Below are positions 4,696-30,306 of a DNA stretch of 33,148 nt, in pieces. Every line of letters begins with the position of its first letter. The first letter of the stretch is position 1. A program made the position numbers and the translations under genes. The notes under the pieces are model-generated. The model saw only the letters and a list, made by a program, of their open reading frames with translations, did not search any database and had not been told where the DNA came from. Origin of the DNA: Bifidobacteriaceae bacterium (GTDB lineage Bacteria > Actinomycetota > Actinomycetes > Actinomycetales > Bifidobacteriaceae); contig JAQXZM010000134.1 of assembly GCA_029227215.1 (NCBI GenBank), positions 1-33,148 of the forward strand, given 5' to 3'.

Positions 4696-6504
4696 TTAGA
4701 TCCACGAATGCAGCCACATGTGCTGCAGCCAGAATTCGTAGGGGATCGGCATGCCGGTGCTCAGCGGCAGGAAGTACAGGCTCACGAGCACGATGACCGT
4801 GAGGCTCGCCCCGCTGATCCAGCGGAAGGCGAACGCGCTGAGATTCGCGCGCACCCAATCGAACACATAGCAGATCGCCAGCACCATCCACGGCAGGATC
4901 ACGATGGAGTAGAACGTGAACGTGGTGCGGTTGATGTACATCCACCACGGCATCCAGCCGCCGATGAGCCCGGCGAACACCGCAAGGATGCGCCAGTCGC
5001 CGCGGCGCGCGATGAGGCCCATGATGAGCACGAGCAGCAGGCAGGCGGTGGCGAACCACCACAGCACCGGGTTGCCCAGCGACGTGACGGCGCTCACGCA
5101 TTGCTTGCTGGGCGCGGCGGCGCACAGCGCGGGGTGGCCGTCGATCTTGTTCCAGTGGAAGCTCGTGGGGCGGATCTGCAGCGGCCAGGTGAGCGGATTC
5201 GCCTTGTAGGCATGCGGGCTGGTGAGCGTGGTGTGGAACTTCCACATCGTGATGTGGTATTGCACGAAGGAGCGCAGACCCTCGGGCAGCCAGGTGATGC
5301 CCTCGCCCGGATGCTTGGCGGCCCAATCATGCATGTAGGAATCCGGATGGATGAACCAGTTGATCCAATCGAGGAAGTACATGCCGATGTACAGCGGCAC
5401 CATGTACAGCGCGGCGAGCAGGCCGTCCTTGGCGATGGTGGCGGGCAGCCAGCGGCGGTAGCCCACTTGGTGGCGGTTATAGCCGTCCCACAGCACCGAA
5501 AGCACTGCGAACACCGCGAAGAAATAGGTGCCGCTCCACTTGACGCCGGTCGCCAGGCCCAGCAGCACCACGGCGCCCACGCGCCACCAGCTGAACGCCA
5601 CCACCGGGCCGGACGACCTCACGACGAGGCGCACCGATGGCTGGCCGGCGGCGGCATGCTGGTCGCCGCCCTCGCCGCGGCGCTCGCGAGGCTTGAGCTG
5701 CACGGTGCGCACCACCATGCCGGGGCGGCTCACGTCGCGTTCGTGTGCTGCCTGCAGGCGCCGCAGCGCCCAGTCGCGGTGGTTGAGCAGGCATAGGAAC
5801 GCGCCGAGCACGAGCACCATGATGAGGTTGTCGAGGATGCCGATGCGGCTCATGGCGATCGCTTCGTTGTCGACGGCAAGCAACAATCCGGCGAACGCGG
5901 CGATCGTGAGGTTGTGGAACAGGTGTAGCGCCACGCGGCAGATGAGCAGGATGGCGAGGGTGCCGACGATGGCGCTTGTGGCGCGCCATGCGAAGCTGCT
6001 CGCCGCCCCGCCGAACAGCTTGAGGCCGATCGCCATGAGCCACTTGCCCATCGGCGGGTGCACGATGTACTCCGCGGAGCTGGAATACAGATAGGTCTGG
6101 CCTTGGGCGAACAGCGTGTCGATGTGCACGCCGTCCACGTACTTGGGCCAGTCGCGCGCCTCGCCGGTCATCATCATCGACCAGGCGTCCTTGACGTAGT
6201 ACGTCTCGTCGAACATGATCTGGTGCGGGTAATCGAGGCGGATGAAGCGGATCAGCCCGCCGAACAGCGTGATGAGCAACGGCACCACCCAGGTGAGCGC
6301 GCGGTAGGGCAGGCGACTCAACGGGTTGCGGCTGCGCCGGCGCGCGATGCGCGCGCGGGACGTGGCGGTTGGTGGGGTGAGCGTGGCGAGCGTGCCAGCA
6401 GCGCCGGCCGTGGCGTCGGCGGTATCGCTGCCAACGCCGCCGCTGGTTGCGCCGGTGGCCCCCAACGCGGCGTTGTCGATGATTTCAGGCTGTTGCGAAT
6501 TCAT
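4696..6504 (-). CDS. pmt: Polyprenyl-phosphate-mannose-protein mannosyltransferase (PMT, GT39), copy 1
   Basis: A 602-residue membrane glycosyltransferase that moves mannose from polyprenyl-phosphate-mannose to Ser/Thr of secreted proteins outside the membrane. After a ~60-residue Ala/Thr-rich cytoplasmic tail and an RARIARRRSR patch comes the first membrane segment, then the first external loop with the PMT catalytic acidic pair in FDETYYVKDAW and the conserved HPPMGKW. About ten further hydrophobic segments follow, including the C-terminal four-helix PMT module. The start is supported by a −10-like TAGTCT 6 nt before the ATG (leaderless). It is divergent from rsmI, as in other Actinobacteria such as Mycobacterium. 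A paralogue lies at 28369-30306. Confidence 0.93.
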   Translation of the reverse strand: MNSQQPEIIDNAALGATGATSGGVGSDTADATAGAAGTLATLTPPTATSRARIARRRSRNPLSRLPYRALTWVVPLLITLFGGLIRFIRLDYPHQIMFDETYYVKDAWSMMMTGEARDWPKYVDGVHIDTLFAQGQTYLYSSSAEYIVHPPMGKWLMAIGLKLFGGAASSFAWRATSAIVGTLAILLICRVALHLFHNLTIAAFAGLLLAVDNEAIAMSRIGILDNLIMVLVLGAFLCLLNHRDWALRRLQAAHERDVSRPGMVVRTVQLKPRERRGEGGDQHAAAGQPSVRLVVRSSGPVVAFSWWRVGAVVLLGLATGVKWSGTYFFAVFAVLSVLWDGYNRHQVGYRRWLPATIAKDGLLAALYMVPLYIGMYFLDWINWFIHPDSYMHDWAAKHPGEGITWLPEGLRSFVQYHITMWKFHTTLTSPHAYKANPLTWPLQIRPTSFHWNKIDGHPALCAAAPSKQCVSAVTSLGNPVLWWFATACLLLVLIMGLIARRGDWRILAVFAGLIGGWMPWWMYINRTTFTFYSIVILPWMVLAICYVFDWVRANLSAFAFRWISGASLTVIVLVSLYFLPLSTGMPIPYEFWLQHMWLHSWI

Positions 6505-10582: not shown

Positions 10583-10951
10583 CCCCTGTGCACCACTCAT
10601 CCACCATGAATCCACTACCGCGCCGGCGGCGGAGGAGAACGGCGCAAGTAATGGCCGGCTGGTTCCGCGCGTGTGAGAATGCGTGCGTTGCGCGACCGTC
10701 ATTTTCAAGACTTTTCAGCTCACAAAATATCCGAACGCCGTGCCTTGCGTCAGAGCACCGGATTTGAGAAAATGTAATCACGAATGCTTCGCCGTCCGTG
10801 CCTGCGTCCGTCGTGCCGGTCCCACGTAAAACGGAAATCGCCGCCAGCATGATGGGCGTTAACATGCCAGTCCGATCCAGCGGACGCGAAATTTCTGGAA
10901 GGGAGCGCACCCGTAATTGCGATTGTCGTCTCGCGAGCGACGGAAAAGACC

Positions 10952-10988
10952 AGGAGGCGTCGGCCGGCCCAAGGGCACCGACGCCTCC
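10952..10988 (+). terminator. Hairpin with strong stem between the AbiEi-like and PBECR4-type genes
   Basis: GGAGGCGTCGG pairs with CCGACGCCTCC around a 14-nt loop. Only a short TTCAT follows, so termination would be weak; it may instead be a regulatory stem upstream of the 11044 gene. The gap 10477-11043 contains this hairpin, the DnaA-like boxes and a 19-bp duplication, and no supported gene. Confidence 0.5.
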
Positions 10989-11026
10989 TTCATATCTAGA
11001 GCACAAGTTCATATCTAGAGCACAAG
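10989..11026 (+). repeat. Perfect 19-bp tandem duplication upstream of the PBECR4-type gene
   Basis: TTCATATCTAGAGCACAAG occurs twice, back to back, 18 bp before the ATG at 11044. The identity of the copies suggests a recent duplication or a conserved paired operator. Confidence 0.85.
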
Positions 11027-11043
11027 ATGAAGGGCGGAGCCAT

Positions 11044-11690
11044 ATGGCGGTATTTTTCGATCCCGCGGAATCAATACGCGCTGCACATGCTTGCGCACCT
11101 GTGTATGCCGAGAGGTTGCTCGCGCGTCGCGTGCTCTTCGTGCCATCGGATGGGAGCGCTCCGTTGGAGACTGTGTATCAAGCGTCCAACTTCATGCACT
11201 TGTGCGGGGTGAGCTACAACAACATTTCCGCATTAACGTTCTGGAACCTTGCGATTTCACATCGACTGCCCGTCGCTGGTCTCCACGCAAATAACCGTGG
11301 AGTTGTCGCAAAGCGCGAGGTGCTCTCCACGTTGGTCAGGATTGACGAAAAGGGAACGATAATGATTTCGAATCCTGAGCTCCCTGGCAGGACGCAAGCG
11401 GATGCCGTATGTGCATCACTTCCTTATGCCGTGGGATACAGAGATTCAAAATCCGGCATGCATCCTTGTACGTCGCTGAAACTCCCGGACGCCAGAATGG
11501 CTGGGAGTCGGAACATCGTGATGGTGTTGAAAACGAGGCCAGAGGAAGCCGTGTATTCAGTAATATCGAAAAGCCTGCGCGCGCCGATTCCAAGAAGTAT
11601 GACAGCAAGGTAGCGAACATCCGTCGGTCATTGCGTGCCTATGAAGGCGAGTGCGTGTTTGATATGCAACTGCTGCAAGAGGCGTTGTGA
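11044..11690 (+). pseudogene. PBECR4-domain (barnase/EndoU/ColE5/RelE-like) protein, apparently frameshifted
   Basis: The ATG at 11044 follows GGAG. The frame encodes 189 residues resembling PBECR4 proteins, predicted phage-associated relatives of the barnase/EndoU/ColicinE5/RelE nucleases: YQASNFMHLCGVSYNNISAL, FWNLAISHRL, DAVCASLPYAVGYRDSK and NIVMVLKTRPEEAVYSVI in the family order. It then stops at 11611-11613. A −1 shift near the AAAA at about 11568-11571 continues a plausible C-terminus in the other frame (DSKKYDSKVANIRRSLRAYE, ending at 11690). The gene is therefore a one-base-deletion pseudogene, a sequencing error in a homopolymer, or less likely a programmed frameshift. It is convergent with the Fic gene. 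The PBECR4 assignment rests on motif resemblance read by eye. Confidence 0.6.
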
Positions 11691-11746: not shown

Positions 11747-12769
11747 TCATGCGTGATGATCGATGTATGCTAGCGCTTCGGTGCTGGATTCCTCGATGGC
11801 GCGGCTGAAGAACGTGACCCAGCCGTCCCAATCGCCGGTGTTCGATACGGCGAGCAGCGCATCCCGATATTCGGTGCTGTGGCTTTCGAACCATGTGGAT
11901 AGGGGAAGTACGGGTTGTGTCAGCTGTCGCCGTGACATCATCTGCAGCAAGATGAGCAGCCTGCCGACTCTGCCATTGCCGTCCGTGAACGGGTGAAGCG
12001 TCTCGAACTGGTAGTGGAACAGCGCCATGTCGATGATGGAAAGCCCTGGATCCGTGCGGTCGCGCCACCAATCGAGCAGCGCCAGCAGCGCGGATTCCAG
12101 ACCAAGGCCGGGCGGCATCGGGATGAACCGTGCATCCTCGATGCGCTGCGTGGGCGAGCCGATGAAAACCTGGCTCGATCGAAGCTGCCCGGCGTCGCCT
12201 TGATCAGCGTCCGTGCCACGCGCCAGCAGCTGCTGCAGTTCGCGGACGAGCGAGATGCTGATGGGGCGATCTCGCTGGACTTCGCCAAATCCGTAATCGG
12301 CTGCATCAATCACGTCGAACACGGCAGCGAGCGACGGGTCCCAGCCGCTTTTATCGTCGCCTGGCTTGTACTGCTGAGTCAGCACCGTGTGCAGATCGGC
12401 ATGGATGCCCTCCATGGCGCTGGTGCTGTGAGCCTCGCGGCGCATGGCATTGCGGACGAACGGCTTGATGCCCTGCAGTTGGCGGCGAGCCTGTTCGTCA
12501 AGCCGCGCGAGCGCCGTGGCTGCACGCGTGGCGGCGCCGATTGTGCGTGGCGAGAACTCCGGGTAATCGCCCAGCGGGTCGGGTACGAATGCCTTGGCGC
12601 GGTATTCGGTGATTCCCGACGGGGAGAGATATTCGCAATGCAGCGGCACGAGCGTGCCGGGCGCATTGGGCGTGGCGGCGGCGTGCAGGGTCAGCTTGTT
12701 GGTGCTCGGATTCGTCATGCCCAGATTCGTCATGTCCGGATTCGTCATGTCGGGAGCGTTCCATGCCAT
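11747..12769 (-). CDS. Fic family protein (AMPylator), class II self-inhibited type
   Basis: Fic enzymes transfer AMP or another nucleotide group from a donor to a protein hydroxyl. The 340-residue product has an N-terminal Fic_N-like helical domain (DYPEFSPRTIGAATRAATAL), the inhibitory motif T-x-x-x-E-G in STSAMEGI (115-122), which places it among enzymes with the inhibitory helix at the N-terminus, and the complete active-site motif HPFTDGNGRVGR (259-270) with catalytic His259. It is therefore probably active. The start at 12769 is supported by a −10-like TATCAT 7 nt upstream (leaderless). Just inside lies a 15-bp triple repeat encoding MTNPD/MTNLG/MTNPS, each with an in-frame Met, so shorter starts are possible. 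The target is unknown. Confidence 0.9.
   Translation of the reverse strand: MAWNAPDMTNPDMTNLGMTNPSTNKLTLHAAATPNAPGTLVPLHCEYLSPSGITEYRAKAFVPDPLGDYPEFSPRTIGAATRAATALARLDEQARRQLQGIKPFVRNAMRREAHSTSAMEGIHADLHTVLTQQYKPGDDKSGWDPSLAAVFDVIDAADYGFGEVQRDRPISISLVRELQQLLARGTDADQGDAGQLRSSQVFIGSPTQRIEDARFIPMPPGLGLESALLALLDWWRDRTDPGLSIIDMALFHYQFETLHPFTDGNGRVGRLLILLQMMSRRQLTQPVLPLSTWFESHSTEYRDALLAVSNTGDWDGWVTFFSRAIEESSTEALAYIDHHA
12708..12752 (-). repeat. 15-bp tandem repeat, three units, near the Fic start
   Basis: Units GGATTCGTCATGCCC, AGATTCGTCATGTCC and GGATTCGTCATGTCG follow directly on each other. On the coding strand they give three MTNxx pentapeptides, each with an in-frame ATG. Confidence 0.85.
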
Positions 12770-12859
12770 GGCGCAGATGATACCAGTGCCGATTTCGCCA
12801 GCTGAATCGCCGCAATCCGCAACGAACCGCATGGTCCGGCAGCGCGCCGCCCTGGCTTC

Positions 12860-12877
12860 GTGTGCGCGTAGGCGCAC
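12860..12877 (+). repeat. Single GTGTGCG...GCGCAC palindrome upstream of metG
   Basis: GTGTGCGCGTAGGCGCAC followed by CCGGTGGG, the same form as the copies at 7404 and 7478. It lies in the divergent region between the Fic gene and metG. Confidence 0.55.
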
Positions 12878-12995
12878 CCGGTGGGCGGGATGACGGGCAG
12901 TTGGGTTCCGGGGGAGCGCCCAAGCCGCTCGGGCCGCTCTGCCAGCGCCGACTGCAGCGCCCTCCCATGTCGCCCTCCATGTCGGCGCAAGCATC

Positions 12996-13001
12996 GATAA
13001 T
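12996..13001 (+). promoter_or_regulatory. −10 element of metG (leaderless)
   Basis: GATAAT ends 7 nt before the metG ATG, which has no ribosome binding site. Confidence 0.5.
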
Positions 13002-13008
13002 CGCAACT

Positions 13009-14928: not shown

Positions 14929-15070
14929 TCCGCGGGATTCCAAATGATTGAGCGGAAGGATTATTCCGTTGTCGCATGATTGCAATGCGGAATGATTATT
15001 CCAGGCGATTGCTCCGAATAATGATTCTCCCGAGCAGTCATTTTGAATAATCAACAAGCGCGAATGGCAA

Positions 15071-15106
15071 GCGCCCCGACCAAGAAACCGGTCGGGGCGC
15101 TTCGTT
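15071..15106. terminator. Bidirectional terminator between metG and the GGDEF/EAL gene
   Basis: GCGCCCCGACC pairs with GGTCGGGGCGC around an 8-nt loop, flanked by AA and TTCGTTATT. It serves the convergent metG and the 15210 gene. The rest of 14929-15209 holds an AT-rich patch with repeated ATTATTCC and GAATAATGATT (14955-15055) and a degenerate GCGGATTGATTGGG repeat (15120-15180). Confidence 0.85.
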
Positions 15107-15209: not shown

Positions 15210-17927
15210 TCAGTTGTCGAACGACGGACGGTCGATCGGCTGGATCGGCGGCACTTCATAGCGATTGGCGTGCGCGGCATGGGAGGAATCCGCAGCGGCT
15301 CCGGAGACCTTGGCGGCGCCGCCATCCCCGCCATCCGCGCCATCCGCGCCGCCCGAGCCACCCTTCGCGTCGCGCCCCGCCGCCACATACTCCATGTTGG
15401 CGGAAAGCCCGGTGGTTTCCAGCCGCATGCGCAGCTCCGAAGCGGTCATCGGGGTGGCGAACAGATCGCCGATCACCTCGGCGCAGCCCAGGTCGAGCAG
15501 CTCCTGCACCTGGTCGGGCGTGCTCACGCCGCTCAGATACACCGCGAAATGGTTGCGCTTGGCGGCATCCACGATCTCCGACACGATCGTGTGGGCGCGC
15601 GGGTTCTCCAGGTCCTGCACCACCGACGCATCGAGCGTGAGCGCGTCGGCGGGAATCTGCGCAAGCGCGGCGATCTCGGAGAACGACGTGCCGCCCTCCA
15701 CGATCACGAGGCGCATGTTGGGAAGCGCCGCTAGCGCCTTGATGTCATCTTCGCAATCCGGGCCCTCGCCGGCATGCTGGATCGCATCGCGCCCGATCTG
15801 CAGGTGGAACGTCACCTCCGGGTGCTTGGCGCTCGCGGTCTCCATGTATTCATAGAACGCGGCGTCATCCAGCTCGCCGCCGTTGAGCAGGAATCCCAGC
15901 GTATGGACCCGCGGCGCATCGGCATCGGACACGACGGCGCGCAGCTGCGTCATGTCGCGCAGCGCTTGCTCGATCGTGTCAATCGTGAGCCGGGTGCCCA
16001 GCTGCAGGCGCACCGCCTCGTTGGCGATGAAATCATGCTGCAATGGCTGGCCATCCGCGCCCACGATATGCGGAATGGCGTTGACGCCCACCATCGTGTT
16101 GGTGCGCAGGTCGAACGCCGGCTGGTAGCGCATCGTGAACGAATTCTTCTCGATGGCATCGCCCAACGCGCCGGACGCGAGCACCGACTGCGCTGAATCG
16201 CTTTCCTCGACGGCGCCCGCCAGCGCAACGGCATCACCGCCGATGCCCGCGTTCGCCAGCACTGCATCGATCTGCGCGAAATCGCGCGGCGCCACGATCG
16301 CGGTGGACGTCATCGTGGACAGCGACACAATGGCGTCGTCGGCATGCACCGGCAGAGACGTGGTGTTGCGCAGGTCCTCGGCAAGCCGGTCGACGTTGGT
16401 GCCGGGCGTGACCTCGTGGAGCACGACGGCGAAGCTGTCGCCATCCACGCGCACGAGCATCGCGTCGTCGGGAGCCATACGGCGGATGCGGTCGGCGGTG
16501 GCGCGCAGCACCACGTTGCCGGTGCGGCGGCCGAAGCGTTCGTTGATGTGGCGGAAGCGTTCGATCTCCAGGTAGACGATGGCGATGGTGTTGGCGCTGT
16601 TGCCGGTCTCCAGCGTCTTGAGATACGAGACGAACGCGCCGTAGGTGTAGGCGCCGGTGAGCGGGTCGCGCTCGCCCTCGGTGCGCAGCGTCGTGACCTC
16701 CTGGTGCACGCGCAGCTCCTCGGCGAGGATCTCGGCGGAGGAAGCGAGCACCGCCGCGTCGGCGGGCAGGAACGGCCGGTTGAACATGCTGCGCTCGAAC
16801 ACCAGCACATACTGGTCCTTCCCGCTGCCGATGGGGCCGGATGCCCGGTAGGAATGCCACGGGCGGCGCGCCAGGGCGTCGCGGGAGCTGATGAAGCAGC
16901 GCACGTTGGGCATCTCGCGGTTGAGCGTCGATGCCACCACGTTCTCCGGCGCCGTGTGGGGAAGCGGCAGCGAATCGGTGACGGCGGTGATGGCGCGCAG
17001 CGAGTTGCGGTACCGCATGAGGCGGCGCACCGCATAGAAGCTCAGCAAGCCCAGTGCATAGGCATCGAGCAGCGCGAGGAACAGCACATGCACGTTGAGG
17101 ATGTCGGTGAGGGAATCCGAGAATTCCACGATGGCGGGCGTCCAGACCATGAGCACCGCCGCCGCGAGGTCGCATACCGCCAGGCCGATGATGCGGGTGA
17201 GGCTGAACTCCGGCATCGCGGCGCTGATGGGCACGCCCACCAGCACGAACACGAGCAGGTCGCACACGAGCCGCACCGCCACGATGGCGACGGCGATGAT
17301 GAGCAGCGGCGCGATCCAATGGCCCACCAGGTAATCAAGTACCGCAGCCGACGGCGTGGAGCCCTCGATCATGCGGCGCAGCGTCGCGGGCTCGCCGCCC
17401 AGGATCGCGCGGATCACGGGGATGGGCGCCAGCGCGGTGCTGGTGCGGATGGCGCCGATGAAGAAGCTCTTGGCGTTGCGCGCGCTGCACAGGAACGTGA
17501 CGATGAGCAGCGGCATGAAGAGCTGGTCGAGCGTGCCGGTGACGAGCAGCATGATGGTGAGCAGCGGAATCACAGTGTGCCGGCAGGAGAGCGTCTCGCT
17601 CGACAGCCCCGTGGCATATGCCATGCAGACGATGAAGCTGACGATGGAACCGGCGGTGGCGATGGGGTGCGCCGTTGCGAACGGCAGGAACGCCGGCCAG
17701 TAGCCGATCGTGAGTCCCGCGAGTTCCGCCAGGCACACGAGGGCGAGCACCCACACGCGCGTGTTGTGGTGTTGCCCGGGCGGCAGGAGCGTCTGCTCGT
17801 CGCTCGCCGGGCTGATGGGCACCGGGTTGATGGGCACGGGGTTGCTGGCTATTGGATTGCCGGTTGCCGGGCTGTCGGCTGTCGGATTGACCGGTGCCTG
17901 ATTGCTAGGCGACGTGGTTGATGTCAT
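15210..17927 (-). CDS. Membrane protein with degenerate GGDEF and EAL domains
   Basis: The 905-residue protein starts at ATG 17927 with AGGGAG 6 nt upstream. It has a Pro/Asn/Ser/Ala-rich N-terminus of ~55 residues with near-repeats (NPVPINPVPISP), about eight membrane segments (57-300), a linker domain, then GGDEF (~420-545) and EAL (~590-850) domains. Both active sites are lost: the GGDEF loop reads DGDSF (495-499), and the EAL signature reads NAI at 618-620 within VGVNAIPH; the DDFGTGYSS element reads VEGGTSFSE. It should neither make nor cut cyclic di-GMP. It may bind a nucleotide or act as a scaffold. The C-terminal tail is Gly/Ala/Asp-rich. It is followed upstream on the same strand by the GH18-like gene, probably co-transcribed. 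Confidence 0.88.
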   Translation of the reverse strand: MTSTTSPSNQAPVNPTADSPATGNPIASNPVPINPVPISPASDEQTLLPPGQHHNTRVWVLALVCLAELAGLTIGYWPAFLPFATAHPIATAGSIVSFIVCMAYATGLSSETLSCRHTVIPLLTIMLLVTGTLDQLFMPLLIVTFLCSARNAKSFFIGAIRTSTALAPIPVIRAILGGEPATLRRMIEGSTPSAAVLDYLVGHWIAPLLIIAVAIVAVRLVCDLLVFVLVGVPISAAMPEFSLTRIIGLAVCDLAAAVLMVWTPAIVEFSDSLTDILNVHVLFLALLDAYALGLLSFYAVRRLMRYRNSLRAITAVTDSLPLPHTAPENVVASTLNREMPNVRCFISSRDALARRPWHSYRASGPIGSGKDQYVLVFERSMFNRPFLPADAAVLASSAEILAEELRVHQEVTTLRTEGERDPLTGAYTYGAFVSYLKTLETGNSANTIAIVYLEIERFRHINERFGRRTGNVVLRATADRIRRMAPDDAMLVRVDGDSFAVVLHEVTPGTNVDRLAEDLRNTTSLPVHADDAIVSLSTMTSTAIVAPRDFAQIDAVLANAGIGGDAVALAGAVEESDSAQSVLASGALGDAIEKNSFTMRYQPAFDLRTNTMVGVNAIPHIVGADGQPLQHDFIANEAVRLQLGTRLTIDTIEQALRDMTQLRAVVSDADAPRVHTLGFLLNGGELDDAAFYEYMETASAKHPEVTFHLQIGRDAIQHAGEGPDCEDDIKALAALPNMRLVIVEGGTSFSEIAALAQIPADALTLDASVVQDLENPRAHTIVSEIVDAAKRNHFAVYLSGVSTPDQVQELLDLGCAEVIGDLFATPMTASELRMRLETTGLSANMEYVAAGRDAKGGSGGADGADGGDGGAAKVSGAAADSSHAAHANRYEVPPIQPIDRPSFDN

Positions 17928-18024
17928 GTGCACTCCCTGATGAATGCCGGATGAAGAAGTCTGTGGTGCAGAAGTATGTACTGCAGAAGTATGCGTGCGG
18001 CGCGGTGCCGTCAGCGCGGTGCCG

Positions 18025-19317
18025 TCAGCTGGTGGGCCCGATGAGCCTCCACGGGGAATCCACGCCATTGGCGGTGCTGTCTGGCTGGACGCCGGTGTTT
18101 TGCTGCAACGCCTCGTAGATCTTGTTGTCCCAGACGACCTTGCTGCCCTTCGCGTAGGTGGTGGCGGCGTCCCAGGTGGGGTAATCGCTGCCGTTGCGCT
18201 CCCATGTGGTGTTCATGTTTACGATGGTGCCGGGCGTGCCGTGGAATCCCGAGCCCAGGATCGTGGCGAACTCGCCGCTCGTCTGCTTCATGCCGCTGCA
18301 CGCGGTCTGGGTGGAGGTCACGGAGGCGTTCTCGCCGCACTGCTGGTCGCGGTTGAGCGACCACATGCTCACGCGCCCCAGGTTGGCTTGGAGCGCGAAG
18401 GTGTTGACCTGCTGGGCGTCGTCGAGCGTGAGGTATTCGCCATCGGTATCGTTCTGCCCGATGAGCACGGTCACGCCCATCATCTCCCAGATCTGGGTGT
18501 CGTTGAACAGCTTGCCGCGCGAGTAGAGCATGCTCCTGTATTGGTTGTGCACGGCGTTGAGCGCCTGCTTGATGAGCGTCGCCTGGTCGGTCGTGGTGGA
18601 GGGGACGTTGAAATCCATCGCCATCACGTTGAGCGAACCGAGGTTCACGCCGGCGTCGAGGAACGATTCGACGGTCTGCTTGCCCGCATCCGTGAGGCCG
18701 TCGGTGCCCACTGGCAGCGTGAGGCCCACGGTGAGGCTGGCGCCGGACTGCTCCGCCTTGCTTTGCAACGCGGCGACCGCTTGCGCGCGGCGCGTGGCGG
18801 CATCGCTGTAGCCATCGAGGTTGGATTCCTCGATGTCGAAATCGATCGACGAGACGTGATAGCGCGAGATGACCGCGTCGTAGGCGCTTTGCAGGTCCTG
18901 CGCGGTGGAGCATTGCGAGGCGAGCTCGTGGCCCTGCTGGCCGCCGAAGCTGATGGTGACGGTGCGCCCCGAACGCGCGGTGCGGGCGATGCGGCTGTCC
19001 ATGTCGAGTTGCGAGGCGGCGTCGTCCATGCTGTAGTAGCCGCCCCAGCTGGGCGTGCACCCGGAGGGCGCCGTGATGAAGCCGAGCACGACGTTCTTGT
19101 AGACGTCGCCCACATCCGATTCGAACGTGTAGCTCGGGGTGGAAGTCACATCGGCATAGCCGCCGAACCACGGGGCGGGGAGCTTCTTCGACGATGTGCG
19201 CGTGTAGACGAGCCACGCCCACACGCCGCCTGCGATGAGCGCCACCGCCACCAGAAAGGCGATGAATCGCGCGATCGAGAATCGGCGCCCTGGGAAGAGC
19301 GGTTTTCTGCGACTCAT
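18025..19317 (-). CDS. Membrane-anchored GH18-like glycosidase with C-terminal CBM5/12 module
   Basis: A 430-residue protein with an N-terminal signal anchor (basic start, hydrophobic 17-38), so the enzyme part is outside the membrane. The barrel carries the GH18 strand motif SFGG (123-126) and the catalytic D-x-D-x-E in SSIDFDIEE (D159, D161, E163), with MAMDF later as expected for GH18. GH18 enzymes cleave β-1,4-GlcNAc polymers such as chitin or related glycans. The last ~50 residues form a CBM5/12 chitin-binding module (WDAATTYAKGSKVVW, then KIYEA and PWRLIG). The ATG at 19317 has a near-perfect AAGGAGG 5 nt upstream. It precedes the GGDEF/EAL gene and is divergent from the GT2 synthase, suggesting it trims or releases that polymer. 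The glycan substrate is inferred. Confidence 0.85.
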   Translation of the reverse strand: MSRRKPLFPGRRFSIARFIAFLVAVALIAGGVWAWLVYTRTSSKKLPAPWFGGYADVTSTPSYTFESDVGDVYKNVVLGFITAPSGCTPSWGGYYSMDDAASQLDMDSRIARTARSGRTVTISFGGQQGHELASQCSTAQDLQSAYDAVISRYHVSSIDFDIEESNLDGYSDAATRRAQAVAALQSKAEQSGASLTVGLTLPVGTDGLTDAGKQTVESFLDAGVNLGSLNVMAMDFNVPSTTTDQATLIKQALNAVHNQYRSMLYSRGKLFNDTQIWEMMGVTVLIGQNDTDGEYLTLDDAQQVNTFALQANLGRVSMWSLNRDQQCGENASVTSTQTACSGMKQTSGEFATILGSGFHGTPGTIVNMNTTWERNGSDYPTWDAATTYAKGSKVVWDNKIYEALQQNTGVQPDSTANGVDSPWRLIGPTS

Positions 19318-19675: not shown

Positions 19676-22015
19676 ATGGCGAATCACAATGCCAAGGCAA
19701 ACGATGCCACCAGGTCTCCCAAGCAGGGCTTCCTGGGGCTCGGCAGCCGTCGCATGCCCGACGGCCGCATCCGGCAATGGGGGGCGGAACGCTCCACGCA
19801 ACCGCTGTCGATCATGCACGACAGGCCGTCCGGCCGCAAGATCGTGATGGGCTATGTCGCGATGATCATGACCGTCGTGTGCTACGTCGTGTACATGGTG
19901 CGCATGATCCTCACGCTCTTCGTGCACAATCCGAACGTGACGCTGCGTTTCGTGCTCGAAGGCGTGCTGTACCTGCTCATCGTGACCGTGCTCATCTTCA
20001 GCGCGATGGTCTACCTCGCCACGCGTCAGGGCGCCATGCGCCGCTTCATCACCCACGAGCGCGTGCCCCGCGCCATGCTCGACGAGCACTTCGACCACGG
20101 CTACGCCAAGGGCATCACGGTGCTCATCCCCTCGTATGTGGAGCAGCCCAAGGTGGTCGAGAAGACCATTTGGTCCGCCGCGCTCCAGGAATTCCCCGAC
20201 ATTGCCATCGTGCTGCTCATCGATGACCCGCCGCATCCCAAGGATGACGAACACCGGCGCATCCTCCAGGCAAGCCGCGACCTCGTGCCGCGCGTCATGG
20301 CGGAGCTCGACGCGCCCGCCAAACGCTTCACCGCCGCCCGTGCCCGCGCCCGCGCCGAGGTGCGCGACCGCCTCTATGCCCGCCGCGGCACCGTGGCGCA
20401 ATGCGTGGAGGATTACCGCGCCGCCGTGCGCTGGCTCAACGACAAGGCGGATGCCTGGGAGGTGCAGGACCACACCGATGCCTTCTTCTGCGACCAGGTG
20501 TTGCGCGGTCTGGCCCGCGAATTGGGCGAGACGTGCGAGGCGCTGCGCCAGGCGGTGAACTTCAACGAGCGCATCTCGTCGGAGCGCCTGCTGCAGCTGT
20601 ACAACCGGCTCGTGTGGATCTTCACCGCCAAAGGGTGGTCGTTCGAACGCAAGCAGTATTGCTCCACCTCGCAAGAGGGCAACAAGGCGATGAACCTCAA
20701 CTCATTCATCGGCCTCATGGGCCACAAGCTCAAGCGCGAGGAGACCGCGGACGGCGTGGCGCTGCGCGACATCCGCCCCGGCGAGGCACCGGACTTCGTG
20801 ATGCGCGACTCCGAGTACGTGCTCACGCTCGACGCCGATTCCATGCTGCTGCGCGACTACTGCCTGCGCCTCGTCTACCAGCTCGAGCAGCCCGGCAACG
20901 AGCGGGTGGCGGTCATCCAGACGCCCTACTCCTCGTACCGCGGCGCGCCTACGCGCATCGAACGCATCGCTGCCGCCACCACCGACATCCAGCATGTGCT
21001 CCACCAGGGCATGACGTATTACGACGCCACGTTCTGGGTGGGCGCGAACGCGGTGATCCGCAAGCGCGCGCTCGACGACATCTGCGTCGTCTCCACCGAA
21101 GACACCCGCACCATCAAGACCTACATCCAGGACCGCACCGTCATCGAAGACACCGAATCGAGCGTGGACCTGGGCTATTACGGCTGGCACTTGGTCAATT
21201 ACCCCGAGCGCCTGAGCTACAGCGCCACCCCGCCGGACTTCGGCTCGCTCGTGGTGCAGCGGCGCCGCTGGGCGAACGGCGGCCTGCTCATCATCGGCAA
21301 GTTCTTCCGCATCGTGCGCGCCCGCCGCGCCAGCGCCGATCCGGTGAAGCTGGGGGAGTGGTGCCTGCGCGTCAACTACATGGCGTCGATCGCGTGGTCG
21401 AGCTTCGGCCTCATGTTCCTGCTCGCCTACCCCTTCGACCAGCGGCTGCTGAGCCCCTGGGTGGTGCTCGCCTCGCTGCCGTACTTCGCCTCGTATGCCT
21501 CGGACCTCAAGTACAACGGCTACAAGCGCTCCGACATCTTCCGCATCTATGGCTTCAACATCGTGTTGCTCACCGTCAACCTCGCCGGCACGCTCAAATC
21601 CATCCAGCAAGGCATGACGAACACGAAGATCCCGTTCGTGCGCACGCCGAAGGTCTCGAACCGCACCGCGTCGCCGCCGCTCTATGTGGCGATGCCGTGG
21701 GCGATCGTGATCTTCTCGTGCTTCGTGTTCTACTCCGATTACCTCACCCAGAACTGGGGCAATGCGATTTTCGCCGGGTTCAACGCAATCGTGACCACCT
21801 GGGCGATCGTCTCGTACATCGGCGTGTGGCATTCCATCCAAGACATGGTGGTGGGGCTCGTGCGGTGGTTCTTCGTGCCGGTCAAGCCCAAGGTGGCACC
21901 CGCGCAGCGCGTGCGCAACGACGCGATGCGCGAGGCCTTGGGCGGCAATCCCTCGTGGAAGGACGCGCTGTATTTCGGCGACCGGCAGATGGTCTACGAG
22001 ACGCGGCGGCGGTAG
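19676..22015 (+). CDS. Processive family 2 glycosyltransferase (cellulose/chitin/hyaluronan-synthase-like)
   Basis: A 779-residue membrane synthase expected to polymerise a β-linked glycan from a UDP-sugar and export it. Two membrane segments (55-81, 92-116) precede the GT domain, which starts at GITVLIPSYVEQP. Motifs of processive GT2 enzymes are present: the first Asp pair in LLIDDPP (183-184), DADS (386-389), the acceptor motif IEDTESSVDLGYYGW (490-504) and QRRRW (528-532). About five more membrane segments follow. The ~190 residues between the first Asp and DADS are longer than usual and contain an Arg/Ala-rich helical insertion (205-310). No PilZ domain is visible. The start has GAGGTGAT about 9 nt upstream. 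Divergent from the glycosidase and dead GGDEF/EAL genes. Confidence 0.9.
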   Translation: MANHNAKANDATRSPKQGFLGLGSRRMPDGRIRQWGAERSTQPLSIMHDRPSGRKIVMGYVAMIMTVVCYVVYMVRMILTLFVHNPNVTLRFVLEGVLYLLIVTVLIFSAMVYLATRQGAMRRFITHERVPRAMLDEHFDHGYAKGITVLIPSYVEQPKVVEKTIWSAALQEFPDIAIVLLIDDPPHPKDDEHRRILQASRDLVPRVMAELDAPAKRFTAARARARAEVRDRLYARRGTVAQCVEDYRAAVRWLNDKADAWEVQDHTDAFFCDQVLRGLARELGETCEALRQAVNFNERISSERLLQLYNRLVWIFTAKGWSFERKQYCSTSQEGNKAMNLNSFIGLMGHKLKREETADGVALRDIRPGEAPDFVMRDSEYVLTLDADSMLLRDYCLRLVYQLEQPGNERVAVIQTPYSSYRGAPTRIERIAAATTDIQHVLHQGMTYYDATFWVGANAVIRKRALDDICVVSTEDTRTIKTYIQDRTVIEDTESSVDLGYYGWHLVNYPERLSYSATPPDFGSLVVQRRRWANGGLLIIGKFFRIVRARRASADPVKLGEWCLRVNYMASIAWSSFGLMFLLAYPFDQRLLSPWVVLASLPYFASYASDLKYNGYKRSDIFRIYGFNIVLLTVNLAGTLKSIQQGMTNTKIPFVRTPKVSNRTASPPLYVAMPWAIVIFSCFVFYSDYLTQNWGNAIFAGFNAIVTTWAIVSYIGVWHSIQDMVVGLVRWFFVPVKPKVAPAQRVRNDAMREALGGNPSWKDALYFGDRQMVYETRRR

Positions 22016-22111: not shown

Positions 22112-23155
22112 TTAGGCGCTGAGCGTGCCCTGCAGCTCTGCCTGCAACTTTCCCTGCAGTTCGTGCAGCGTGGCGTCGATGTCGGCGTCGATGAGGATCG
22201 AGCGCTTCGCAATGTGCTGGTCCGTCACCGCTTCGCCGAGGTTGATACTCGCATAGGTGGCGTTCGCATTGTCATACGTCCACTGCATGAACGGGTATTT
22301 GAAGATGCCCGGCGTGTTGCCGCCGCTGCCGAGGTCGAGGAACAGCACGTGGCCGCCGCGCTTCTCGGTGGCACGGGTGCGTGTGAGGAACGCCTCGTAG
22401 CGCTTGAGCGACGTGTGCCACAGCTCGTCCTCGGCGAAGGTCTCATCGCTGCGCAGGTTCGGCTGCATCGGCGATCCATCCTCGGGGCAGTGGGGAATGA
22501 GCTCCTGGGGAATCGCCATGCGGATGGATTTCCAATCGCTGGGCGGCAGCAGCGCGCCCCAATCCGCGGAATAATCGGCGGCGACGGCGGTGCCGGTGTC
22601 GGTGGCGGGTACGTCGGTGGTGCTGGCGGGCGCTGCGAACTCATCGTGCTCGAAGCGGAAGCCCTGCGCCACGAGCATGCGCTTCACGTCCTGCTCGTTG
22701 CTGTAGGTGCGGCTTGTGCCTGGCTTCGAGCTTTGGAACAGGCCGTAATCGCCTTGCGTGAAGAACAGGCGGTCATCAGGGAATCCGGCTTTCTGGAAGC
22801 AATGGTCCACGTTCGTCGTGATGACGAAGAAATCCTTGCCGCGCACGAGCTCGCGCAGCAGACCGTAGGTGTCGCGCGGCGGGTCCATGTAGCGGTTGAT
22901 GTAGATGGAGCGGCTCCACCATGCCCAATAGGTCTCGAGATCCGGGTAATCCCAGAAGCCGCCCGAATACATGTCGGGGATGCCGTACCGTTCCACGAAG
23001 TCGTGGAAGTAGCGTTCGAGGCGTTCGCCGGCGTAGGTGAAGCCCGCGGATGTGGACAGGCCCGAGCCTGCGCCGATAACGATGGCATCGGCATGGCGCA
23101 GGGCGTTGGCGAGGCGTTCGATGGGAGTGGCGGGGGTAGTGGAGCGGAGAATCAT
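22112..23155 (-). CDS. Class M sirtuin (SirTM), putative protein ADP-ribosyltransferase
   Basis: SirTM enzymes are sirtuins found next to macrodomain genes that transfer ADP-ribose from NAD to a target protein. The 347-residue product has the NAD-binding GAGSGLSTSAGFTY (28-41) and TTNVDH (113-118). At the position of the usual catalytic His it has Gln in TQGD (133-136), typical for this class. The zinc knuckle is reduced: only IPHCPEDG with NLRSDETFAEDELW remains, where related proteins carry CPxCG. The segment AAPASTTDVPATDTGTAVAA (~177-196) is an unusual low-complexity insertion. ATG 23155 has AAGG about 6 nt upstream; a GTG lies two codons earlier. It follows the macrodomain gene by 84 nt, probably in one operon. 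GcvH-L and lipoate ligase partners known from Firmicutes are not in the window. Confidence 0.87.
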   Translation of the reverse strand: MILRSTTPATPIERLANALRHADAIVIGAGSGLSTSAGFTYAGERLERYFHDFVERYGIPDMYSGGFWDYPDLETYWAWWSRSIYINRYMDPPRDTYGLLRELVRGKDFFVITTNVDHCFQKAGFPDDRLFFTQGDYGLFQSSKPGTSRTYSNEQDVKRMLVAQGFRFEHDEFAAPASTTDVPATDTGTAVAADYSADWGALLPPSDWKSIRMAIPQELIPHCPEDGSPMQPNLRSDETFAEDELWHTSLKRYEAFLTRTRATEKRGGHVLFLDLGSGGNTPGIFKYPFMQWTYDNANATYASINLGEAVTDQHIAKRSILIDADIDATLHELQGKLQAELQGTLSA

Positions 23156-23239
23156 GAGCACCTTGATGCTGTAGGGGGAGTGGCGGGTGGCGCGGCGTGG
23201 GGCGTCCCTGTGCGTGGCGGCGGGAATCGGATTCGGCGA

Positions 23240-24151
23240 TTATGCGTCAAAACCCAGCAAATTGCGGTAAATCGCCTCATCGGTGGCACCGAATACGTCG
23301 AACACCACAGTGGGGATCGTTGCCGTGGTGTTTGCGGTATCGGTTGTGGAATCGGCGGAGGGACCGGAGGTGGGTGTCGCCGTGGCGTTTGAGGTATCGG
23401 CGGTGTGGGCATCAAGCCACGCGCGCACGGTGCGTACCGCGATGCGCGCCGCTTCCTCTTGCGGGAAACCAAACACGCCGGTGCTGATGCAGCAGAACAC
23501 GATGCTGCGCAGGTGCAGCCGCGCGGCGGCGTCGAGACAGCTGCGGTAGCTCGATGCGAGCAGTGCGCGGGCCCTCTCGTTGGGACGCCCGTCGGCGATG
23601 GGGCCGACCGTGTGGATCACGTACTTCGCAGGCAGGTTGAAGCCGGGCGTCACCTTCGCTTCGCCGGTCGGCTCGGGATGGCCCTGTGCCTCCATGAGAC
23701 GGTTGCATGCGAGCCGCAATTCCACGCCGGCGTAGGTGTGGATCGCGTTGTCGATGCACCAGTGGCCGGGTGCCCAGCAGCCCAGCATCTCGCTGTTGGC
23801 GGCGTTGACGATGGCGTCCGCGCGGATGGCGGTGATGTCGCCGCGGAACAGCCGCAGACGGGAGTCGATTGGTGCGGTCTGCACGGATTGGTGGTCGTGC
23901 AGCTCCACGATGCCGCGTTCGGCGATGATGTCGTGCAACAGGCTGTCTTGCGCGGCAAGCCACTCGGCGTTGGGCTCGATGGGCTCGCGCGTGTTCACAT
24001 ATGCGCGGAAGAGTTGCCACAGCTGCTCGCCGGTGTAGGAATGCAGCGCATCGTCGTTGGTGGGGATGTCTGGTTGCCAGCCGCCGTAGTGTTCGCGCTC
24101 ATCCGCCAGATAACGCACCAAGGGAATCAATCGCTGTGCGAAATTGTTCAT
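23240..24151 (-). CDS. Zinc-containing macrodomain protein, protein-ADP-ribose hydrolase
   Basis: A 303-residue enzyme expected to remove ADP-ribose put on by the neighbouring SirTM. The ~90-residue helical N-terminal extension typical of these proteins precedes the macrodomain, which shows LFRGDITAI (101-109), IVNAANS (114-120), the zinc and active-site segment GCWAPGHWCIDNAIH (124-138, ligands C125, H130 and C132) and CCISTGVFGFP. A Thr/Ser/Ala-rich stretch (TADTSNATATPTSGPSADST) interrupts the C-terminal part before the last strand, which is unusual. The ATG at 24151 follows AAAGGAA by 6 nt. First gene of the two-gene leftward operon with SirTM. Confidence 0.92.
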   Translation of the reverse strand: MNNFAQRLIPLVRYLADEREHYGGWQPDIPTNDDALHSYTGEQLWQLFRAYVNTREPIEPNAEWLAAQDSLLHDIIAERGIVELHDHQSVQTAPIDSRLRLFRGDITAIRADAIVNAANSEMLGCWAPGHWCIDNAIHTYAGVELRLACNRLMEAQGHPEPTGEAKVTPGFNLPAKYVIHTVGPIADGRPNERARALLASSYRSCLDAAARLHLRSIVFCCISTGVFGFPQEEAARIAVRTVRAWLDAHTADTSNATATPTSGPSADSTTDTANTTATIPTVVFDVFGATDEAIYRNLLGFDA

Positions 24152-28368: not shown

Positions 28369-30306
28369 TCAGGTGCCGTTGAGCCAGCCGGGGAGAAGGG
28401 CACGGAACTCCCAGCCGAGGGTGGTCATCGGAATGCCCACCCAAAGCGGCAGCAGGTAGATGCCGAACACAACCGCCGCCACATCGAGCGTGACGGCCCA
28501 ATTGCGCAGGGAATCGGGGTACTTGCTGCGCCGCCGCACCCAATCGAGCAGGTAGCAGGTGGCGAGAATCTCCCAGGGCAGGAACGCAATCGAGTAAAAC
28601 GCATACGTCGTGCGATACAGATACAGCAGCCACGGCGCCCAACCGGCGAGCATGCCGGACCACACGGCGAGAGCGCGCCAGTCGCCGCGTCGCATGATGG
28701 CGAACACAATCGCTGCCACTAGGCACGCTGTGCCGATCCACCACACGACTGGGTTGCCCACGTTCGTGATCGTCGCCACGCAATCCGTGCGGGTAGCGGA
28801 TGGTCCGCACAGCCCCGGGAAATCGAACGACAGCGGCTGGACGTCGTCGTCGAACACAGTATTGAACGCGGTGCTCTGGAGCTGCAACGGCCAGTCAAGC
28901 GCGGTGGATTGCGAGGGATGATACCAGCTGATGGAACCCGCCGTCTGAAGGTCATGGATATGACGCTGCACGAAGGAGCGTAGCGTCGCGGGCAGCCACT
29001 GGATGCCCTGGCCGGGGTTCTCCTCCGCCCAATGGCGGTAGAACGCGTCCGATGAGATGAACCAGCTCGTCCACGTCGCCACATAGGTGAGCACATAGAG
29101 CGGCACCGCGTAAAGCGCGGTGAGCAAGCCGTCTTTGGCGACGAGCGCGCCGAACCAGCGGCGGTAGCCCACGGTGCGGCGATTGTAGCCGTCCCACAGC
29201 ACGGAGATGAGCGCGAACACTGCGAAGAAGTAGCCGCCGCTCCACTTGATGCCGGTGGCGATGCCCAGCAGCATGAAGCCGGCGAGCCGCCACCAGCTGA
29301 AGGCCACGACCGGTCCGGACGAACGCACCACGAGCCGCACGGACGGCCGCCCCGCCACGCTGCCCGCGCTGTAGGTGTCGCCGCCTTCGCCGCGCCGCTC
29401 GCACAGGCGCAACGGCACGGTGCGCTCCACCATGCCGGGCCGTGCCACGTCGCGTTCATGGGCGATGCGCAGTCGTTCCAGCGCCCAGTCGCGGTGGTGA
29501 AGCAGGCACAGGAATGCGCCGAGCACAAACACCATGAGGAATCCGTCGAGAATGGCGGTACGGCTCAGTGTGATCGCCTGGCCATCGAACGCCATGAAAA
29601 TGGCGGCGGTCGTAGCAATCGTCACGTTGTGGAACAGCATGAGCGCCACGCGCGCCACGAGCAGGATCGCGATGGTGCCCGCCAGCGCCGCGGTGAAACG
29701 CCATGCGAACGGGTACGCCCCGCCGAAGAGCTTCATGCCGATGGCGATGAGCCACTTGCCCAGCGGCGGATGGGTGAAGATGGTCTCGGGTTGCGGCAGG
29801 AAGGTGTTCACGTCGCCATTGACGAAGGCCTCGCTGATTCTTGCACGGCCTTCGCCAAAGTTGAGGAGCCCCTTGCCTGCGTCTGGATCGGGCCATTGGC
29901 GCTCCGCGCCGGTCTGGAGCATCGCCCAGGCATCCTTGACGTACCAGCTTTCGTCGAAGACGAGGTCGTGCGGCGAGCCCAGGTGGAAGAAGCGCAGGAA
30001 CCCGCCGATCGCGGTCACGATGAGTGGCGCGATCCACCCCAGTGCGCGGGTGCTCGGCCGATGCGCGCGCCACCAGCGCACGAAGCGGCCCGGTGCGTGA
30101 CCGTTCGCGGCGCTCGCCTTGGCGCCGCGCTCCTTCGTGAGGAACGCGATGACCGCGTTCTTGTGCTGGGGCTGCCGAGCGGGCTGCTTTGCGCGTTGCT
30201 TGGGTTGTGCGGGTTGCTCCGGTTGCCGGGCGTTCTGTTCGCCGGATTGCCCGGTCTGCTCGCCAGCAGGCCCGTCGGGCTGTGTGCTAGATTGCGTGGC
30301 TTCCAT
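28369..30306 (-). CDS. Polyprenyl-phosphate-mannose-protein mannosyltransferase (PMT, GT39), copy 2
   Basis: A 645-residue paralogue of the protein at 4696-6504, with the same order: a disordered Gln/Pro/Ala/Lys-rich N-terminus (~95 residues), first membrane segment, the catalytic acidic pair in FDESWYVKDAW, then THPPLGKW and about ten further membrane segments with the C-terminal PMT module. The internal segment with LRLCERRGEGGD and VRSSGPVVAFSWWR is nearly the same in both copies. It differs in the first loop (a longer DPDAGKGLLNFGEGRARI insert), so acceptor specificity may differ. The ATG at 30306 has AGAAGGGAT about 10 nt upstream. Convergent with tatD and divergent from the amidotransferase gene. 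Confidence 0.92.
   Translation of the reverse strand: MEATQSSTQPDGPAGEQTGQSGEQNARQPEQPAQPKQRAKQPARQPQHKNAVIAFLTKERGAKASAANGHAPGRFVRWWRAHRPSTRALGWIAPLIVTAIGGFLRFFHLGSPHDLVFDESWYVKDAWAMLQTGAERQWPDPDAGKGLLNFGEGRARISEAFVNGDVNTFLPQPETIFTHPPLGKWLIAIGMKLFGGAYPFAWRFTAALAGTIAILLVARVALMLFHNVTIATTAAIFMAFDGQAITLSRTAILDGFLMVFVLGAFLCLLHHRDWALERLRIAHERDVARPGMVERTVPLRLCERRGEGGDTYSAGSVAGRPSVRLVVRSSGPVVAFSWWRLAGFMLLGIATGIKWSGGYFFAVFALISVLWDGYNRRTVGYRRWFGALVAKDGLLTALYAVPLYVLTYVATWTSWFISSDAFYRHWAEENPGQGIQWLPATLRSFVQRHIHDLQTAGSISWYHPSQSTALDWPLQLQSTAFNTVFDDDVQPLSFDFPGLCGPSATRTDCVATITNVGNPVVWWIGTACLVAAIVFAIMRRGDWRALAVWSGMLAGWAPWLLYLYRTTYAFYSIAFLPWEILATCYLLDWVRRRSKYPDSLRNWAVTLDVAAVVFGIYLLPLWVGIPMTTLGWEFRALLPGWLNGT

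Follow-up and report, generated by a model that had tools for sequence, protein, structure and literature searches.

The window, by which we mean the whole stretch of 33,148 nucleotides that was analysed, belongs to a MAG of 2.0 Mb (83% complete) placed at the level of Pseudoscardovia, a genus that includes Pseudoscardovia suis. Three neighbouring genes of this window (Table 1) encode a membrane protein with GGDEF and EAL domains, a GH18 protein and a divergently transcribed GT2 synthase. An alternative in-frame start as far upstream as 18068 is possible for the GGDEF-EAL open reading frame, and a promoter scan of the locus found nothing.

Table 1. Positions of the genes, domains and short sequence features of the locus within the window.
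Feature	Position	Strand	Basis or remark
Degenerate GGDEF-EAL membrane protein, 905 aa	15210..17927	-	ORF, Pfam, orthologues, AlphaFold2 model
AGGGAG, ribosome-binding-site-like, 5 nt before ATG 17927	17933..17938	-	Sequence
N-terminal transmembrane helical region, residues 54-319	16971..17768	-	AlphaFold2 model; kept in orthologues
GAF-like alpha/beta domain (putative), residues 327-419	16671..16949	-	Inferred from topology; no Pfam match
GGDEF domain, residues 420-560	16248..16670	-	Pfam 7e-16
EAL domain, residues 587-826	15450..16169	-	Pfam 2.3e-27
DGDSF replacing GGDEF, residues 495-499	16431..16445	-	Alignment with orthologues
NAI replacing EAL, residues 616-618; Arg of ExLxR is His620	16074..16082	-	Sequence
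VEGGTSFSE replacing DDFGTGYSS, residues 743-751	15675..15701	-	Sequence, alignment
13-bp hairpin between the GGDEF-EAL and MetRS genes, whose ends converge	15069..15102	.	
Membrane-anchored GH18, chitinase-like, DFDIE motif kept, with CBM5/12	18025..19317	-	97 nt upstream of the GGDEF-EAL gene, same strand
BcsA-like processive GT2 synthase, 779 aa, no PilZ, divergent	19676..22015	+	

The Pfam scores of the GGDEF and EAL domains (Table 1) show that these are not chance matches. The initial annotation had read the protein as having lost both catalytic sites while keeping the folds around them, and each of the motifs that it named was found as described: DGDSF in the context RVDGDSF, NAI in the context VGVNAIPHI, and the altered DDFGTGYSS element. 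The losses extend beyond these motifs, as the further EAL substitutions N to L, E to Q, K to T, E to S and Q to I leave the EAL catalytic set (Glu, Asn, Glu, Asp-Asp, Lys, Glu, Gln) entirely replaced. Glu stands in place of the metal-binding Asp of the GGDEF domain (D327 of PleD), and neither GGDEF nor GGEEF, the diguanylate cyclase motif, is present in the protein. The RxxD I-site of degenerate GGDEF receptors (PelD, YdaK and BcsE type) is likewise absent from it, with Pro and Ala at the two positions, as is the ExLxR motif of degenerate EAL receptors (LapD, FimX and PdeB type), which reads NAIPH. Sequence error as the cause of these losses was ruled out, since they are common to three congeners. 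Both folds are nevertheless retained according to the AlphaFold2 model of the whole protein (mean pLDDT 82), because its EAL part superposes on the solved EAL domains of YahA and BifA (Z 28.5, 2.3-2.5 Å, about 250 residues), the match to YahA being at 2.3 Å over 249 residues.

The decisive context of this gene, which the initial annotation missed, is its membership in a polysaccharide unit with the GT2 and GH18 genes. The GT2 protein of the window has the DxD and QxxRW motifs of its family (as DADS and QRRRW), and the best solved relative of the GH18 protein is an exochitinase (4.5e-46), with the catalytic DxDxE kept. Beside the GT2 gene, a Sir2-like reading frame (22112-23161 (-), assigned by eye and giving no Pfam match) adjoins a macrodomain protein gene (23240-24151 (-), Pfam 2.4e-39); neither was present in the stretches examined around the P. 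suis and UBA2724 units. Near the MetRS gene we also observed a Fic/Fic_N protein (11747-13006 (-)) and a reading frame with a PBECR4 nuclease domain (10798-11613 (+)). Two protein O-mannosyltransferase-like genes flank the region (4696-6504 (-) and 28369-30306 (-)), and several other genomes have relatives of these genes close to the unit.

We searched 189 Bifidobacteriaceae genomes for the gene and found a syntenic orthologue in 13 of them, the window's own included. Among the 12 further carriers are P. suis, B. thermophilum, B. apri, B. boum, B. merycicum, B. catenulatum subsp. kashiwanohense and Aeriscardovia aeriphila. The EAL site is dead in all 12 of these orthologues and the GGDEF site in 11, the exception being a MAG (G097) in which RVGGDEF is kept and the EAL site is dead. 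None of the 12 syntenic EAL domains that were tabulated keeps either the Asn or the Asp pair, and the EAL part of the B. merycicum protein, which stood outside this table on account of its broken frame, has also lost them. Since syntenic orthologues across the family share the dead sites, the losses are not strain-level decay, the outcome that would have told against the initial annotation. The genomes G134 and G152, from another genus of the family, encode full-length homologues with both sites intact. Judged from these comparisons, the degenerate state is a family trait with an intact relative, and not a recent local loss.

The order of the unit, with a divergent GT2 gene, the GH18 gene and then the GGDEF-EAL gene, was the same in 13 of 13 genomes, and every syntenic orthologue is thereby encoded with a polysaccharide synthase (13/13). 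The GT2 and GH18 genes were each confined to these same 13 of the 189 genomes, save for one partial, different GT2 in another genome (G065), and within the family they were never seen without the GGDEF-EAL gene. A Fisher test of this co-occurrence gave 3e-19, a value that overstates the evidence because the genomes are related; the 13 genomes are not 13 independent events, since co-occurrence within one family partly reflects shared ancestry. In G134 and G152, the intact GGDEF-EAL gene adjoins the gene of a different GT2, whose C-terminal domain is PilZ. Two genomes lacking both GT2 and GH18 contain reduced relatives of the gene: in G022 only a GGDEF remnant is present (L075:8930-9193), and in G158 a shortened form (L070:1397-2863) has a partial membrane region and a degenerate EAL domain, with the GAF domain and most of the GGDEF domain deleted.

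Relatives of the GT2 protein were sought in 84,980 species genomes, and the 80 best loci were retained. A GH18 gene lies nearby in 78 of these 80 loci, and in 24 of the 80 the GT2 protein carries a C-terminal EAL domain. These fused proteins (L157-L182, for example L167:9971-13012) are held by Micromonosporaceae (Actinoplanes and its kin), Blastococcus, Ilumatobacteraceae and others, and the residue set of their EAL domains is intact in most, the Asp pair being lost in Blastococcus and in an example from Acidimicrobiaceae. In a model of one such fusion, a BcsA-fold GT2 is joined to the EAL domain by some 75 residues of flexible linker, and its GT2 part matched BcsA with Z 21.2-21.8 and 2.9-4.0 Å over 454-487 residues (Z 21.8 to 4p00). 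In a tree of the GT2 proteins, the 24 fused sequences grouped together (SH-aLRT 96), apart from the bifidobacterial sequences, which formed a group of their own (SH-aLRT 100). As the fused and bifidobacterial forms are separate groups on this tree, at least two couplings of an EAL domain to this GT2 are indicated. A history in which the bifidobacterial EAL domain descends from the fused one is not preferred, as the full architecture matches the G134 and G152 proteins instead. Among the nearest relatives outside the bifidobacteria, most GT2/GH18 pairs (those of Curtobacterium, Nocardioides and most Arthrobacter) have neither an EAL domain on the GT2 protein nor a GGDEF-EAL gene in the 10-kb flanks. 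Because most of these pairs lack both, the GGDEF-EAL subunit is not essential to the GT2. A GT2/GH18 pair at 54% identity was also seen on a contig labelled Candidatus Saccharibacteria (L136), a case of either binning error or transfer.

The view that the protein is maintained was borne out by the reading frame, which is open in 11 of the 13 syntenic orthologues, and by dN/dS values that were below 1 in all eight pairs compared (0.18-0.51, with 0.18-0.22 in close pairs; the values for Pseudoscardovia pairs are rough owing to heavy synonymous change). The corresponding values were lower for the partners, at 0.03-0.13 for GT2 and 0.05-0.20 for GH18, and identity between the window and its congeners was 52-54% for the GGDEF-EAL protein and 89-90% for GT2. 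By these measures the GGDEF-EAL protein is under purifying selection, yet it evolves much faster than its partners in the unit. In the bifidobacterial EAL domains, the catalytic columns were less conserved than the domain (0.23 versus 0.38; 2.8% of random sets were as low), whereas in the fused EAL domains they were more conserved (0.90 versus 0.49). The GT..SE residues of the former DDFGTGYSS loop are invariant among the syntenic orthologues, and the invariant residues lie outside the catalytic set. This pattern is what would be expected of a fold kept for contacts and not for a ligand in the old EAL pocket; a new ligand there is argued against because the pocket positions drift faster than the domain average.

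We consider it probable that the GGDEF-EAL protein serves the adjacent GT2 synthase as a membrane-bound pseudo-enzyme subunit, dead in both catalytic sites, which regulates the synthase by protein contact and, in this MAG, independently of c-di-GMP. We base this proposal on the observed residue loss, the modelled folds, the strict co-occurrence and synteny, the purifying selection and the fusion of EAL domains to GT2 proteins elsewhere; from these we infer the physical contact, the direction of control, the input signal and the polymer. It probably descends from an enzyme or a switch of c-di-GMP signalling. The chemistry has been lost in the syntenic family, which keeps both folds, the GAF-like domain and the membrane anchor; in the window's genus the known c-di-GMP-binding motifs are gone as well. 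A signal sensed by the membrane and GAF part, or the mere presence of the protein, would then be passed to the GT2 synthase, no cyclase having been found in the MAG. The GH18 partner with its CBM5/12 would probably trim or release the polymer outside the cell, and because of this partner a GlcNAc-containing, chitin-like product is suggested. A fuller reading, which we put forward only tentatively, is that the whole membrane-GAF-GGDEF-EAL architecture was converted to a c-di-GMP-free subunit of an undescribed actinobacterial BcsA-fold, chitinase-linked synthase, relatives of which have a fused EAL domain, and that its signal is read by the membrane and GAF part or by a GGDEF pocket altered at the guanine site.

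The initial annotation had suggested that the domains bind another ligand or serve as structural parts, and had called for a conservation analysis of the altered residues. That analysis, which distinguished the two domains, showed that these options are not equally likely: the EAL pocket drifts, and the guanine-side residues of the GGDEF domain do not. The set of GGDEF site residues was more conserved than the domain (0.61 versus 0.45), with the guanine-site Asn (N462), the second Gly and the Phe of the motif, and the Arg two residues before it all invariant. Since these guanine-side residues are conserved, the GGDEF pocket may bind a nucleotide. In Caulobacter PdeA, the GGDEF domain is a GTP sensor that acts on the EAL domain, and the GGDEF domain studied here could be a sensor of a GTP-like nucleotide that acts on the EAL part or on the synthase. 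Such a role would suit the second base-contacting position (residue 471, D344 of PleD), which is occupied by Asn in every syntenic orthologue and the intact G134 and G152 homologues, and by Asp in the 12 other readable GGDEF proteins near GT2 loci and in four from Bifidobacterium. Hypr GGDEF enzymes, in which base choice is relaxed, have Ser at the equivalent position (PMC6456294). However, the metal-binding Asp is lost, the motif reads DGDSF and the conservation of several positions may have structural reasons, and we regard a nucleotide sensor as unlikely.

The preferred reading, control of the synthase by protein contact, was also weighed against continued c-di-GMP reception of the PelD, YdaK or Lactobacillus acidophilus PdeB type, through unrecognised contacts and with c-di-GMP supplied by an undetected cyclase or from outside. 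Degenerate proteins of the GGDEF or EAL type that are known from polysaccharide synthase loci bind c-di-GMP (PMC7112168, PMC5422440, PMC6123363), and in the four unit-carrying species with other intact-looking GGDEF proteins the orthologues keep the Arg of ExLxR. The inventory of the window's genome points the other way, as profile searches found this protein as the sole GGDEF and sole EAL protein of the 83% complete MAG, with no second GGDEF protein as a candidate diguanylate cyclase. In eight of the unit-carrying genomes, four of them 99-100% complete, the searches gave no further GGDEF or EAL protein; profile searches found no other GGDEF protein in B. thermophilum, B. boum, B. apri or B. 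merycicum, and the first three of these, which are near-complete, carry the unit and have no GGDEF, EAL or PilZ protein besides it. A PilZ domain was found neither in the window's genus nor in any of the 13 unit-carrying genomes. A generic HD-domain search matched every genome, including all controls, and was uninformative on HD-GYP. The initial expectation that bifidobacteria have no active cyclase held for this MAG and for most of the group, but some bifidobacteria have intact-looking ones. Intact-looking GGDEF and EAL-GGDEF proteins were observed in several Bifidobacterium genomes (L071, L072, L073 and L074), and the latter are possibly the dual enzyme that has been located in bifidobacterial pel loci (PMC7112168). 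With both binding motifs gone from the window protein and the EAL pocket positions drifting, we find a c-di-GMP receptor improbable.

A reading of the gene as a decaying vestige that retains little function and is carried along in a polysaccharide locus would account for its fast evolution, the G022 and G158 forms and the broken frames of B. merycicum (L063:9152-11718 (-), split into frames of 635 and 215 aa) and G057 (L068:8664-10942, membrane part out of frame with the remaining soluble part), but is hard to credit against the long open frames elsewhere, dN/dS below 1 even in close pairs, invariant non-catalytic residues and the constant association with GT2 and GH18 in the family.

These genomes provide a natural series for a second-messenger switch outliving its messenger, which runs from the intact homologue beside a PilZ synthase (G134 and G152), through the half-dead G097 form, to dead forms in species with other GGDEF proteins and then in species with none. 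The GT2/GH18 polysaccharide unit of Actinobacteria, with its fused or separate EAL partners, was not described in the literature searched, which covered fusions of EAL domains to GT2 proteins with chitinase, chitin synthases of Actinobacteria and proteins degenerate in both domains.

Several known systems resemble parts of this arrangement. LapD and FimX are tandem GGDEF-EAL receptors without full activity that act on other targets, and the window protein is like them in fold, by structure match, and in its tandem layout; they, for their part, bind c-di-GMP through the EAL domain, as in the solved complexes among the structure matches. In BcsA cellulose synthase, the PilZ domain is placed C-terminally. 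The GT2 partner family has the same fold, and the fused actinobacterial EAL domain sits about where BcsA has PilZ; here, however, PilZ is absent and the control domain would be of the EAL type, whether fused or separate.

PelD, YdaK and PdeB are the nearest functional analogues, although all three depend on or bind c-di-GMP with a motif that is absent here. In the L. acidophilus gts operon, the degenerate EAL protein PdeB is encoded together with a GT2 that resembles BcsA (PMC6123363); PdeB keeps ExLxR and binds c-di-GMP, whereas the window protein lacks ExLxR and has a GGDEF domain in addition. YdaK, a degenerate membrane GGDEF protein of the Bacillus subtilis ydaJKLMN operon, is required for polysaccharide and is encoded with putative glycosyltransferases (PMC5422440), but it needs the RxxD I-site and a cyclase, neither of which was found for the window protein or its genome. 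PelD of P. aeruginosa and B. cereus combines a membrane region, a GAF domain and a degenerate GGDEF domain and is encoded with polysaccharide genes (PMC7112168), as is the case for the window protein; it differs in its synthase genes, in keeping the RxxD I-site and in having no EAL domain, while the window protein retains both folds, both of them dead. In streptococci without c-di-GMP enzymes, the pel operon is kept and PelD has lost its GGDEF domain (PMC7112168), and by analogy this streptococcal PelD offers the strongest precedent for a regulator of a synthase that has outlived its messenger.
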